In this document: positions 44,766 through 49,137 of the stretch, in pieces
Layout of the letters: each line of letters begins with the position of its first letter
Position numbering within the stretch: position 1 is the stretch's first letter
Assembly (NCBI RefSeq): GCF_003710105.1
Contig: NZ_CP033325.1
Location: 62,001-126,000 of the forward strand
Source of the DNA: Georgenia faecalis
GTDB taxonomy: Bacteria > Actinomycetota > Actinomycetes > Actinomycetales > Actinomycetaceae
Reading direction: 5' to 3'
Length of the DNA stretch: 64,000 bases
Notes under the pieces: model-generated
Told to the model about the DNA's origin: nothing
The model's database searches: none
What the model saw: only the letters and a program-made list of their open reading frames with translations
Program-made: the position numbers and the translations under genes

Positions 44766-45637
44766 GCGCGGACCTCTCCCGGCTCTCCCTCAACACCGCG
44801 ACGACGAAGTCGCTCACCCTGGACGAGGCGGTGGACGTCGCGGCGCGTGCCGGCCTCGGGGCGGTCGGCCTGTGGCGGGACCGTGTGGCCGAGGCCGGGC
44901 TCGAGCGTGCGGCCGCGGTCGTGCGCGAGGCCGGCCTGCGGGTCTCCTCCCTGTGCCGCGGCGGGTTCCTCACCGCGGTGGACGAGGCCGGTCAGCGCGC
45001 GGCGCTCGAGGACAACCGGGCCGCGATCGTCGAGGCGGCGACCCTCGGGACCCGCGAGCTTGTCATGGTGGTGGGCGGGCTGCCGGCGTGCCCGGAGCCG
45101 GGGACCGCCGCGCTGCCCGACGGCGACCGCGACCTCGTCGCCACGCGCCGGCGCGTCGCCGACCGGATCGGCGAGCTCGTGCCCTTCGCCGCCGAGCACG
45201 ACGTGCGCCTCGTCCTCGAGCCGATGAACCCGATCTTCGCCGCCGACCGCGGCGTGCTGTCGACGCTGGAGCAGTCGCTCGACCTCGCGGCGGACTTCCC
45301 GGCGGAGGCCGTGGGGGTCGTCGTCGACACCTATCACGTGTGGTGGGACCCGAAGCTGGCGTCGCAGATCGCCCGGGCCGGCGCCGAGGGGCGGCTCGCG
45401 GGCTACCAGGTGTGCGACTGGGTGCTCCCGCTCGCGGATGACGCCCTGCTCTCGCGCGGCTACATGGGTGACGGGTACGTCGACTTCGCCACGATCTCCC
45501 GGTGGGTCGGCGAGGCCGGGTACACCGGCGACGTCGAGGTCGAGATCTTCAACCAGGCGATCTGGGACGCCCCCGGTGACGAGGTCGTCGCCACGATCGC
45601 CGACCGCTACGACCGCCTGGTGCGCCCCTACCTCTGA
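44762..45637 (+). CDS. Sugar phosphate isomerase/epimerase (AP-endonuclease-2 TIM barrel)
   Basis: This 291-residue TIM barrel has metal ligands at the expected strand ends: Glu153 in LVLEPMNP, Asp189 and His192 in VVDTYHVWWDP, and Glu261 in VEVEIF. CDWVLPL and GDGYVDF are further family landmarks. Its GTG overlaps the Gfo/Idh stop codon, so the pair is co-translated and should work in sequence, for instance dehydrogenation followed by isomerisation, epimerisation or beta-elimination. It is distinct from the IolE-like protein at 2,336 in the window. The substrate is not identifiable. Confidence 0.88.
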   Translation: MSADLSRLSLNTATTKSLTLDEAVDVAARAGLGAVGLWRDRVAEAGLERAAAVVREAGLRVSSLCRGGFLTAVDEAGQRAALEDNRAAIVEAATLGTRELVMVVGGLPACPEPGTAALPDGDRDLVATRRRVADRIGELVPFAAEHDVRLVLEPMNPIFAADRGVLSTLEQSLDLAADFPAEAVGVVVDTYHVWWDPKLASQIARAGAEGRLAGYQVCDWVLPLADDALLSRGYMGDGYVDFATISRWVGEAGYTGDVEVEIFNQAIWDAPGDEVVATIADRYDRLVRPYL

Positions 45638-45698: not shown

Positions 45699-45739
45699 CG
45701 TGCTGGATGTGGACCAACTGGTGGTCCGAACCCAGCACG
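45699..45739. repeat. 41-bp palindromic repeat, copy A
   Basis: Outer arms CGTGCTGG / CCAGCACG and inner arms GGACCA / TGGTCC form a long imperfect palindrome. It matches copy B at 46,971 at 33 of 41 positions in the same orientation, with outer arms identical. It lies between the isomerase stop and the end of the AbiEi-like gene. Confidence 0.85.
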
Positions 45740-45833
45740 TAGCCGGGTGCGAGCGCGGGCGCGGGCGCCGTCGAGGCTGGAGCGCCCACCGCGTCGCGCC
45801 GGGTGCCCGAGTCCCCCGCCGCGCCGCGTGCTT

Positions 45834-46790
45834 CTACCGCGCGGTGCAGTGCGGACTGCATCGCCGCAGTGCGCCGCCCCAGCCGCCGGCCCGCAGCGCC
45901 TCGGCGACCTGGACAGCCGTACGGCACGGGGCTCCCGCGACATGGCTCCACCGGTATCGCAGGGTGATCTCGCCCGACGCGAGCAGCGCGGCGTTGTCTC
46001 GCCACGTGTCCTCGTCGGTGCGCCCGCCCGGGTGCGCCAGCCGACCGTCGAGCTCGACCCGCACCCGGTGCGCGCGGTACCGGCAGTCGGCGCGGATCCA
46101 CGCCTCTCCCAGGCGCTCGCGCACCTGCAGCTCAGAGCGCGGGAGGCCGTGGGCTACCTCGACGCCGCGGCGGTAGCGCAGCTCGAGCGGGGACTCGACG
46201 CCGTGCGCCACCTCGGCGAGGACGTCACGGACCAGGTCCCGGTGCCGCAGCCTGCTGCGTGCCGTGGCGACGGCCCGGATCTCCTCCGGTCGGAGTGTGT
46301 TGGTGGCGCGCGTGAGGATCCCGACGACGTCGTCGAGCCGGTCGGCGCGCGCCACGAGGTCGAGCACAGTCTCGGGTGCCGTGGTCGCCCGCACCGCGCC
46401 CGACCACACCGCCGGCATGAGTCGTCGCCGATGAATGATGAGTCCCGGCTGTGGCTGGACGGTGCGCCTGAAGGGGACGCTCACCTCGATGGGCTCGTCG
46501 GGGCGCAGGCGGCGTGCCGTCGGCTTCTCGAACCACCACATGCTCGCGGCGGTGTGCGACAGTGCCGCGTCCCGGCCGGCGTAGCTCAGCGCGGCGAACG
46601 CGCGGGTCATCCAGTCCAGTGCCGCGTGGTGGTTGACGTACACGCCCGGATGCAACCGGCGCCACCGCCCGGTCACGACCTGGTGCCGCAACCACGTCGC
46701 TGAAGCCCCGAGCTCGAGGACCTGGCGGCGAGTCACGACGAAGTGCTGGCGGCCGGCGAGACGGTCGATCCTGGCGCGGTCCGGCGTCAT
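45834..46790 (-). CDS. AbiEi-antitoxin-like winged helix with C-terminal DUF559 (Vsr-like) domain
   Basis: This 318-residue protein has an N-terminal AbiEi-type winged-helix domain (about residues 5-60: DRLAGRQHFVVTRRQVLELG, GRWRRLHPGVYV), a middle region with AALSHTAASMWW, and a C-terminal DUF559-like domain. The last shows RVRVELDGRLAH, DTWRDNAALLASG and LRYRWSHV, resembling Vsr/PD-(D/E)xK nucleases. Such proteins are common solitary genes in actinobacteria. No AbiEii toxin is adjacent. The gene is bracketed by two direct copies of a 41-bp palindrome. It might act in genome defence, as an orphan antitoxin, or as part of a mobile cassette; none of these is shown. Confidence 0.78.
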   Translation of the reverse strand: MTPDRARIDRLAGRQHFVVTRRQVLELGASATWLRHQVVTGRWRRLHPGVYVNHHAALDWMTRAFAALSYAGRDAALSHTAASMWWFEKPTARRLRPDEPIEVSVPFRRTVQPQPGLIIHRRRLMPAVWSGAVRATTAPETVLDLVARADRLDDVVGILTRATNTLRPEEIRAVATARSRLRHRDLVRDVLAEVAHGVESPLELRYRRGVEVAHGLPRSELQVRERLGEAWIRADCRYRAHRVRVELDGRLAHPGGRTDEDTWRDNAALLASGEITLRYRWSHVAGAPCRTAVQVAEALRAGGWGGALRRCSPHCTAR

Positions 46791-46970
46791 GCGGCCCACC
46801 GTGCTCGACGGCGGGTGCCTGCCGCGGCGTGACGGCACGGAGTTGTGGACGGCGGCGCTCGGACTCCCGCTGTGGAGGCAGGCCCGGGAGGCGGTAGCGC
46901 TCGCGAGGCGCGACGTTGGCGAGGGCGGGAGCGCTGGGCTGGCGCGAGGACGGGGCGCGACGACGTTCAC
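46791..46970. other. Gene-free stretch upstream of the AbiEi-like gene
   Basis: About 180 bp without a gene; it should hold the AbiEi-like promoter but I could not pick out a clear one. Confidence 0.4.
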
Positions 46971-47011
46971 CGTGCTGGATATGGACTCGCAGGTGGTCCT
47001 TTCCCAGCACG
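46971..47011. repeat. 41-bp palindromic repeat, copy B
   Basis: CGTGCTGG / CCAGCACG outer arms with GGAC / GTCC inside, matching copy A at 33 of 41 positions in direct orientation. It lies 180 bp upstream of the AbiEi-like start and 60 bp past the end of the flavoprotein gene. Confidence 0.85.
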
Positions 47012-47070: not shown

Positions 47071-49137
47071 TCAGCGGATGTTCTGGTCCTCCCGGTACTC
47101 GCGCCAGACGTTCTCGAAGAAGTCGTCGGCCTCCGGGATCGGCCGGCGCGGGCGCCACGCGATGTCGACCTCCCCCGCCTCGCTCGCCGACGCCGGGTCC
47201 GCCGCGCGGTGCGCCGTCCACGAGACCTCCTGGACGGCGTCGTCGAGGGCGCCGTCGTCCAGGGCGAACCGGAAGAGGTCGGGCAGGTCGAGCTCCCGCG
47301 CCGCGTCGGGCCCGTACCCGACGAGCGGCAGCGAGCCGCCCGGGTCGGTGTAGAGGACCGATCCGCGGGAGCGGCCGCCGTTGTCGACGTAGTCGGCCAT
47401 CGCCGTGAGGTAGACCTGGGCGGTGGTGAGGATGTCCCGCACGAGGAAGGCGCGGTTGACCGCACGGCGCGACCCGGCGTCGGCGACGACGAGGTCCCGG
47501 TAGGTGCCGAGCCACTCCTCGACCTGCTCGAGCGCCTCGGCGATCGACCGGCGCGAGCGCACGGGACCGGCCTTGGCGCTCATGAGCTCGCCGGCGGCGC
47601 TCAGCAGGTCACCGGTGTTGTCCTCGGCGCCCTGCGCGGCCCGCGCCGTCGCCCGCCCGACCAGCTCGACGGCGTCCCGCAGGGCCGGCTCGGCGGCCGC
47701 GACGAATGCCGCCTCGGCCACCGGCTCCGCGCCGCGCTGCGCCGCGATGAACTGCGCCGCCCGGGTCGCGCCGACCTGCCCGCTGTTGAGCGCCGCGCCG
47801 CCGGGGCGGTAGACGCCGTGGGCGCCGCCGGCCTCGCCCACGGGGAAGAAGCCCGGCAGGTTCGACTGCCACCAGGCGTCCACGAGCAGCCCGCCGTTGT
47901 TGTGCTGGGCGCACACGTCCACCTCGAGCATCTCCCGCTCGAGGTCCACGTACGGGTTCTTGTTGAGGTAGAACTCGTAGGCGGGCAGGTTCATGTGCTT
48001 GAGCCGCTCGATCGGCGTCCCGAAGAGCACGCCGGCCTTCTCGAGGTAGGCGTACGCCTCGGGGTCGAGGGCGGAGGGGTCGAACTCCTCGCGCACGGGG
48101 TTGCGCCGGAAGTCGAGGTACACGCGCCGGCCGCGCAGCACCGTCTCGCGGTAGACGAGCAGGTCGATGAGCGAGGAGCCGTCGCGGGCCTTGCGCACGT
48201 CGAAGGGCCATTGGTAGCCCTTGAGGAAGGTCAGCGTCATGAGCCGGCCGTAGTCCGGGATCGCCTCGGTGAGGAACTCCCGCTCGTCGCCGCCGTCGTC
48301 GTCGGTGGAGACGAACCGGGGGACGACCTGCATGTACGTGCCCGAGACGTTCCACCGCGGCTTGGTCGAGGCCAGGCCGAACTGCCACTCGGTGACGCCC
48401 TTGCCCCGGACGCCGGCCCGGTAGGCGGCCCCCGACGCGCCCCACTGGCCGTGGGGGAAGACGCGGACGGCGTAGAGGCCGGCCGGCCCGCCCGTGGCGT
48501 AGACGACGTTGGTGCAGCGCACGAGCAGGTAGGGGCTGCGCTCGCCGTCGTGGGGGACGTCGGTGCGCAGGAGCAGCAGGCCGGCGACCGCGCCGTCATG
48601 GTGCAGGACGTCGACGACGCGGCACTCGGAGTACACGCGGGTGCCGTTCGCCCGCACGCGCTTCTCGAGCTGCTCGACCATGCTCCGCGAGGTGTAGGGG
48701 CCCACGGAGGTCGCGCGCTGGCGCGGGTCGTGGTCGGTCTTGTACCCGACGAACTCCCCGTAGCGGTTCTGGGGGAAGGGGACGCCGAGGTCGGCGAGGT
48801 GGAGGAAGGCGCGCGCCGAGAGCGCGGCCTCGGCCAGGGCGTTGTCCCCGTCCATCGCGCCGCCCGCGAAGAGGGTCTGGGCCATCTCCCGCACCGAGTC
48901 GCCCGTGTCGCCGGAGAGTGTGAGCTTGTAGTACGTCTGCTTGTCCGAGCCCGCGTTGCGGCTGGCGCCCGCCCCGACCTTGTCGGTCACCATGACGACG
49001 TCGTCCTGGCCGAACTCGACGAGCCGCTCGGCGGCGCAGTACCCGGCCGAGCCGGTGCCGACGACGACGGTGTTGGCGGTGATGACGGGCACCTCGCGCC
49101 CGGCGATGCGCAGGGTCCGGGGCTCGTGGCTGCTCAC
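47071..49137 (-). CDS. Stand-alone fumarate-reductase-like FAD-dependent oxidoreductase
   Basis: This 688-residue flavoprotein of the succinate dehydrogenase/fumarate reductase superfamily has an FAD-binding motif VVGTGSAG at residues 25-32. GAGASRNAGSDKQTYY comes in the place of the flavin loop, and VVYATGGPAG, CAQHNNGGLLVD and FFPVGEAGGAHGVYRPGGAALNSGQ supply the second FAD-binding region. There is no Fe-S or membrane-anchor subunit gene beside it and no signal peptide, so it is probably a soluble enzyme. GAGGAG lies 7 nt before the GTG. It follows the SDR gene by 17 bp in one operon whose promoter overlaps the LacI-type operator. Its substrate and electron acceptor are unknown. Confidence 0.87.
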   Translation of the reverse strand: MSSHEPRTLRIAGREVPVITANTVVVGTGSAGYCAAERLVEFGQDDVVMVTDKVGAGASRNAGSDKQTYYKLTLSGDTGDSVREMAQTLFAGGAMDGDNALAEAALSARAFLHLADLGVPFPQNRYGEFVGYKTDHDPRQRATSVGPYTSRSMVEQLEKRVRANGTRVYSECRVVDVLHHDGAVAGLLLLRTDVPHDGERSPYLLVRCTNVVYATGGPAGLYAVRVFPHGQWGASGAAYRAGVRGKGVTEWQFGLASTKPRWNVSGTYMQVVPRFVSTDDDGGDEREFLTEAIPDYGRLMTLTFLKGYQWPFDVRKARDGSSLIDLLVYRETVLRGRRVYLDFRRNPVREEFDPSALDPEAYAYLEKAGVLFGTPIERLKHMNLPAYEFYLNKNPYVDLEREMLEVDVCAQHNNGGLLVDAWWQSNLPGFFPVGEAGGAHGVYRPGGAALNSGQVGATRAAQFIAAQRGAEPVAEAAFVAAAEPALRDAVELVGRATARAAQGAEDNTGDLLSAAGELMSAKAGPVRSRRSIAEALEQVEEWLGTYRDLVVADAGSRRAVNRAFLVRDILTTAQVYLTAMADYVDNGGRSRGSVLYTDPGGSLPLVGYGPDAARELDLPDLFRFALDDGALDDAVQEVSWTAHRAADPASASEAGEVDIAWRPRRPIPEADDFFENVWREYREDQNIR

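Follow-up and report, generated by a model that had tools for sequence, protein, structure and literature searches.

Introduction

REP palindromes are thought to be mobilized by dedicated HUH transposases, and one palindrome family, CGTC, is without a known enzyme (PMC3733652). In the arrangement called REP/RAYT, TnpA-REP, or REPtron, palindromes flank the gene of a DNA-processing enzyme, the two co-evolve, and further copies of the palindrome occur in the genome, as described in PMC3733652 and PMC8266576. The REP/RAYT enzyme is a HUH tyrosine transposase. Other described systems resemble parts of this layout. EDxHD homing endonucleases are Vsr-like, the target of a homing enzyme is normally split by its gene, and such a gene occupies a given site in some genomes and is missing there in others, where the empty allele has a single site. 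In AbiE type IV toxin–antitoxin systems, in which AbiEi is the antitoxin, a winged helix of the AbiEi kind goes together with palindromic repeats upstream, and AbiEi proteins bind inverted repeats, according to PMC3985639. A DUF559 protein has been tied to DNA damage in Caulobacter, and VsrA has been linked to methylase function (both PMC12907096).

In this report, we focused on a locus in Georgenia faecalis, within a stretch of 64,000 nucleotides (contig NZ_CP033325.1, positions 62,001 to 126,000; hereafter the window, whose own numbering is used below), where two palindromes bracket a gene for an AbiEi-type protein with a probable nuclease domain. A literature search covering titles and the beginnings of abstracts, with few subscription journals among them, found no description of such a palindrome-bracketed AbiEi/nuclease gene.

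Results

The two palindromes, each of 41 bp and assigned to neither strand, lie downstream (D, 45699-45739) and upstream (U, 46971-47011) of the gene. A preliminary sequence-only reading of the window had reported these two 41-mers, with 33 of 41 positions identical and the same outer arms (CGTGCTGG/CCAGCACG) in both, and exactly one gene between them; all of this was confirmed, the gene being an open frame on the minus strand (45834-46790) that encodes 318 aa. The repeat search merges both copies into one 52-nt family with 77% identity. Folded as single-stranded DNA and compared with shuffled sequence, the D copy has z scores of -6.1 and -6.8 on the two strands and the U copy of -3.0 and -3.6. 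The pair is not due to chance, because the pattern read backwards has no match in the 3.43-Mb genome. An Rfam search gave a chance miRNA match alone (E 0.65). Judged by eye, the centers of many palindromes, including those of the window's genome, seem to carry a CCWGG- or CCNGG-like sequence. Two convergent genes border the unit, one for a TIM-barrel protein (end at 45637) and one for an FAD-binding protein (end at 47071); with these metabolic neighbors and one gene between the palindromes, an AbiEii toxin gene is absent from the operon.

The protein had been read as a fusion of an AbiEi DNA-binding domain to a Vsr-like nuclease, and it is the first half of this reading that stands firmly. Residues 7-53 (46632-46772, minus strand) form an AbiEi_4 winged-helix domain (Pfam PF13338, E 1.1e-8), scoring 35.5 bits against a cut-off of 25 bits, and PADLOC AbiEi profiles match the window protein and 34/34 of the homologues in our protein alignment. 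Solved structures were matched by the N-terminal part alone (AbiGI and an abortive-infection protein, E ~3e-4). The nuclease half is weaker. A probable PD-(D/E)XK (DUF559/Vsr-like) domain spans approximately residues 200-300 (45891-46193, minus strand), with E203, D235, and E246 invariant in the 34-homologue alignment, along with S200, H214, G249, D261, R264, D265, and three cysteines, among others. Pfam identifies AbiEi_4 in 24 of the 34 aligned homologues, AbiEi_1 in six, and DUF559 in five (E<=0.01, best E 3.2e-4), and the DUF559 model has no match to the window protein itself at E<1. An AlphaFold single-sequence model is weak (pLDDT 42), and its order of helix, three strands, helix, strand, helix would fit PD-(D/E)XK, which we give little weight. 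A PD-(D/E)XK-like nuclease is the likely reading of the C-terminal domain; for the window protein taken alone, this assignment is weak. NCBIfam profiles returned nothing for this protein, a plasmid search matched neither it nor the palindrome, a phage search gave one partial match (43%), and viral contigs contained no confirmed match.

Between the U palindrome and the start codon lies a TCCACA core (46844-46849, minus strand), with a second TCCACA, read from the sequence, at 46871-46876 on the same strand. The actinobacterial DnaA box is TTGTCCACA, which the upstream motif resembles in its letters. Of 61 distinct homologous loci, 60 extend at least 150 bp upstream of the gene. TCCACA on either strand occurs in the 150 bp before the start in 52/60, compared with 3/61 in the 150 bp after the stop and 41/823 control windows; these windows are mostly coding, and the stretch after the stop makes the better comparison. 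The stricter form YYVTCCACA is found upstream in 44/60 loci and in 5/823 control windows. The unit consists of the U palindrome, a DnaA-box-like motif, the gene, and the D palindrome.

The window's genome contains seven copies of the palindrome at up to three mismatches (none for the backwards control): two bracket the gene, two sit 124 bp apart beyond a gene that we take, from its sequence, to be rpsA, and three are single. Four of the five dispersed copies are outside long open reading frames, and the fifth overlaps a doubtful one. The two direct copies that are 124 bp apart (G000:C1:1486708-1486870; L014:6708-6870) lie between the likely rpsA and a convergent gene, and are possibly the remnant of a cassette without its gene. 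A second homologous gene in the same genome, 50% identical, is without this palindrome and has another matched pair. Outside this genome, the palindrome gave three weak single matches in 38 relatives, a number equal to that of the backwards control, and three matches scattered through a set of 84,980 species; the window's genus is represented by this one genome. We treat these few matches as chance and rejected the idea that the palindrome is shared with other genera. The concern raised at the outset, that it might be widespread with no link to DUF559 genes, is thus allayed.

Homologues of the gene occur in the order, a protein search of 198 genomes giving 47 matches in 28, and in many loci there is a palindrome on either side. 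Flanks were compared as 260 bp before the start against 260 bp that include the stop and the sequence beyond it, with cross-family pairs as the null, in 58 loci, that is, 64 homologue loci, including those of one genus, minus duplicates (L062, L121, L128) and truncated loci (L034, L046, L063). In 46 of the 58, the two flanks were at least as similar as cross-family pairs at the 99th percentile, versus 6/111 off-site controls; the other 12 loci stayed below this threshold. Among the 46, L066 appears to be a match of coding sequence. Palindromes do flank homologous genes in related genomes, as the sequence-only reading had proposed to check: at least one matched-flank locus was found in 14 of the 17 genera examined. 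Two homologues with an in-frame stop within the match (L122 in G244, L137 in G221) still have matched flanks and are probably decayed cassettes.

Within a unit the two palindromes are alike, and their sequence varies from lineage to lineage in step with the similarity of the protein. In between-locus comparisons, the share of pairs with a palindrome score of at least 22 is 0.00 (two decimals) among 779 pairs below 45% protein identity, and rises to 4/8 at 70-80% and 4/4 above 80%. The window locus and its counterpart in genome G007 occupy the same chromosomal site and have different palindrome pairs, which have an 11-nt core in common and are alike at up to 28/39 positions. In an alignment of nine copies from these two genomes, two-sided arm changes are seen at 4/11 pairs (six cells); both G007 copies are of the G007 type, and the window genome's version is found in 7/7 of its copies for one pair and 6/7 for the other. 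Similarly, four genomes of a well-sampled genus contribute 25 copies (20 distinct), aligned in 21 rows to which the remaining copies are identical; these show two-sided changes at 5/18 pairs, and G221 has its own arm version in all five copies found. These compensated changes indicate that the palindrome is maintained as a palindrome and that the copies within one genome change in concert. Element boundaries could be read from neither of two further comparisons: flank identity between the window locus and G007 ends just where the neighboring genes have their stop codons, an edge that marks none by itself, and L041 and L062 give none because they share 3942 bp without a difference, on one contig. 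G007 also bears on the expectation that the reading would fail if orthologous loci kept the gene and lacked the repeats. It keeps the gene and lacks the window-type repeat, which is half of that expectation in the letter, and it has a palindrome pair of its own; such a pair per lineage is the rule of the system and not a refutation. At up to three mismatches, the G007 palindrome is confined to the two copies beside the gene, with none in 29 other genomes, the window's included. Dispersal of the palindrome is frequent and not obligatory.

Some genomes of the well-sampled genus have the unit at a given site and others lack it there, and one empty site has a single palindrome. The DNA flanking the locus of G150 was located in 40/40 genomes, and in the 30 loci that were read the gene is present in 12 and absent in 18. 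Where the gene is present, the palindrome type varies from genome to genome, and other terminator-like palindromes are present at these sites. At this site G217 has no gene and exactly one palindrome, whose left flank continues the flank of the U copy in G233 and whose right flank continues that of the D copy; no homologue is detected in the G217 genome at E<=1e-15. The one-copy empty site that the sequence-only reading had told us to look for is thus provided by this genome, and it is the solo palindrome of 1/18 gene-less sites, the remaining 17 having no cassette-type palindrome above the null. The difference between G217 and G233 may be a loss of the gene that left one palindrome, or an insertion of the gene at one.

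The palindrome type of G217 and G233 occurs in 4/40 genomes only, at seven places in G217, five in G221, eight in G230, and five in G233, with no match of the backwards control in any genome. Three of them hold the cognate gene, and the fourth, G217, has the one-palindrome site, so that in the genus tested this type has extra copies only where a genome also has the cognate cassette or its one-palindrome site. We followed one dispersed site across the genus. G230, G221, and G252 carry there the type of their own cassette (the score of G230 ties with the near-identical G233), and G217 carries the type of its single palindrome; G233 is an exception, with the type of the G243 cassette. In G225 and G220 the flanks are alignable and the palindrome is absent. 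The copies followed sit between convergent genes and not at promoters. The present/absent comparison at one dispersed site, in which the intergenic flanks are too divergent for a firm reading, gave no clear target-site duplication of the kind that goes with the terminal inverted repeats of a MITE or insertion sequence, and no transposition event was caught in the act in the genomes compared.

Two side observations concern the followed site. Five genomes have longer palindromes of another kind (AGATCGTGACTT.., AACTCGTCACCC..) there (L155, L156, L158, L159, L164, approximately 2100-2310), and a homologous gene was found in one of the five only (G244); these palindromes are perhaps another family with its own partner. 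In G243 (C14:19900-25758) and G252 (C1:613387-616050), the flanks of the site are separated by 5.9 kb and 2.7 kb, respectively, and therefore it takes larger inserts too.

Discussion

The sequence-only reading had likened the layout to REP/RAYT with a different enzyme, and this comparison holds. Palindromes lie on both sides of the gene and at other places (seven copies in the genome of the window and five to eight in four others, only two in G007), and the enzyme, of a type not known for such a role, is an AbiEi_4 protein with a probable PD-(D/E)XK-like part; the Y1/RAYT transposase model (PF01797), which matches 5/14 controls, has no match in the whole genome of the window. Unlike in REP/RAYT, copy numbers are low (2-8) and there is no constant GTAG tag, which adjoins 1/7 of the copies in the window's genome. 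Membership of REP/RAYT was rejected on the missing transposase and tag, and there is a fair chance that this REPtron-like layout is of its own kind. Unlike AbiE, the locus lacks a partner gene inside the palindrome pair, has a palindrome downstream as well, and encodes a nuclease-like C terminus. Like VsrA and other DUF559 proteins, the protein has a probable DUF559 fold (Pfam match in 5/34 homologues), but it also carries an AbiEi domain and its gene lies between palindromes, whereas VsrA is linked to methylase function (PMC12907096).

On balance, we lean toward a palindrome-bounded nuclease cassette that behaves as a REP-type selfish element. In its favor we count the matched flanks, a palindrome type that tracks the protein, the compensated arms, presence and absence at one site, confined dispersal, the resident types at the followed dispersed site in G230, G221, and G252, and the seven copies in the window's genome, together with the binding of inverted repeats by AbiEi (PMC3985639) and the tie of a DUF559 protein to DNA damage (PMC12907096). 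Against it we count the 12/58 unmatched loci, the undispersed G007 palindrome, the foreign type in G233, the coding-like match of L066, the edge of flank identity at the neighboring stop codons, the lack of a visible target-site duplication, and the weak nuclease assignment of the window protein. The original suggestion of a repeat-associated, possibly mobile cassette is supported by the matched flanks, the one-copy empty site, and the confined dispersed copies. Movement of the palindromes by the protein is a hypothesis, and the genomes compared gave neither a clear target-site duplication nor a transposition caught in the act.

For such a cassette we infer binding, cutting, and transposition by the protein. 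The winged-helix N terminus would recognize the cognate palindrome, as a double-stranded dyad or an extruded hairpin, and the PD-(D/E)XK-like C terminus would nick or cut at it. Because resident palindrome copies survive, cutting would probably be restricted to conditions such as replication or DNA damage. Repair from another copy could spread the cassette, seed or convert palindromes elsewhere, and keep the copies of a genome alike, and recombination between the U and D palindromes would delete the gene and leave a single palindrome.

The co-divergence of protein and palindrome, with its concerted and compensated changes, would also suit a DNA-binding protein and its sites. The protein might be an AbiEi-type autoregulator whose U copy controls its own promoter, the other copies being a small regulon or insulators, so that the two co-evolve without mobility; AbiEi binds inverted repeats at the promoter of its own operon and thereby represses it (PMC3985639). 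We consider this unlikely, though it deserves notice, since the second palindrome comes after the stop codon, the followed dispersed copies lie between convergent genes rather than at promoters, and neither the nuclease-like domain with its invariant acidic residues nor gain and loss at one site would be explained. Gain and loss are what a free-standing homing endonuclease would offer: the solo palindrome would be the target in gene-less strains, and cutting would lead to the gene being copied in from a carrier, with a palindrome on each side. The present/absent polymorphism with its one-palindrome empty allele fits, and homing endonucleases of the Vsr-like kind exist; their EDxHD family is named in PMC6083498. 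Yet the gene does not disrupt its presumed target: in carriers an unbroken palindrome stands on either side of it and more lie elsewhere, and a solo palindrome is found in just 1/18 gene-less sites, making this explanation improbable. Slightly less probable again is that the palindromes are passive hairpins, terminators or REP-like repeats spread by another agent, with the gene swapped at a hotspot by ordinary recombination. Dispersed copies do fold as hairpins, mostly outside long open reading frames, and other terminator-like palindromes share the same sites, but at a given site the type tracks the protein, the pairing recurs in 14/17 genera, and the window's genome has no Y1/RAYT transposase that might be the agent.

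Returning to the REP-type cassette, we put forward, quite tentatively, a wider proposal: a novel class of selfish element in which an AbiEi-winged-helix/PD-(D/E)XK nuclease might recognize and propagate its cognate palindrome and turn intergenic sites into the resident type, its expression being coupled to replication via the DnaA box of the promoter. It would be REP-like without a HUH transposase and present across this actinobacterial order. If true, a partnership between a repeat and an enzyme would have arisen with an enzyme unrelated to HUH transposases, and AbiEi-like genes that lack a toxin partner would have a role. Dozens of naturally co-varying pairs of protein and DNA site are on offer for tests of specificity.
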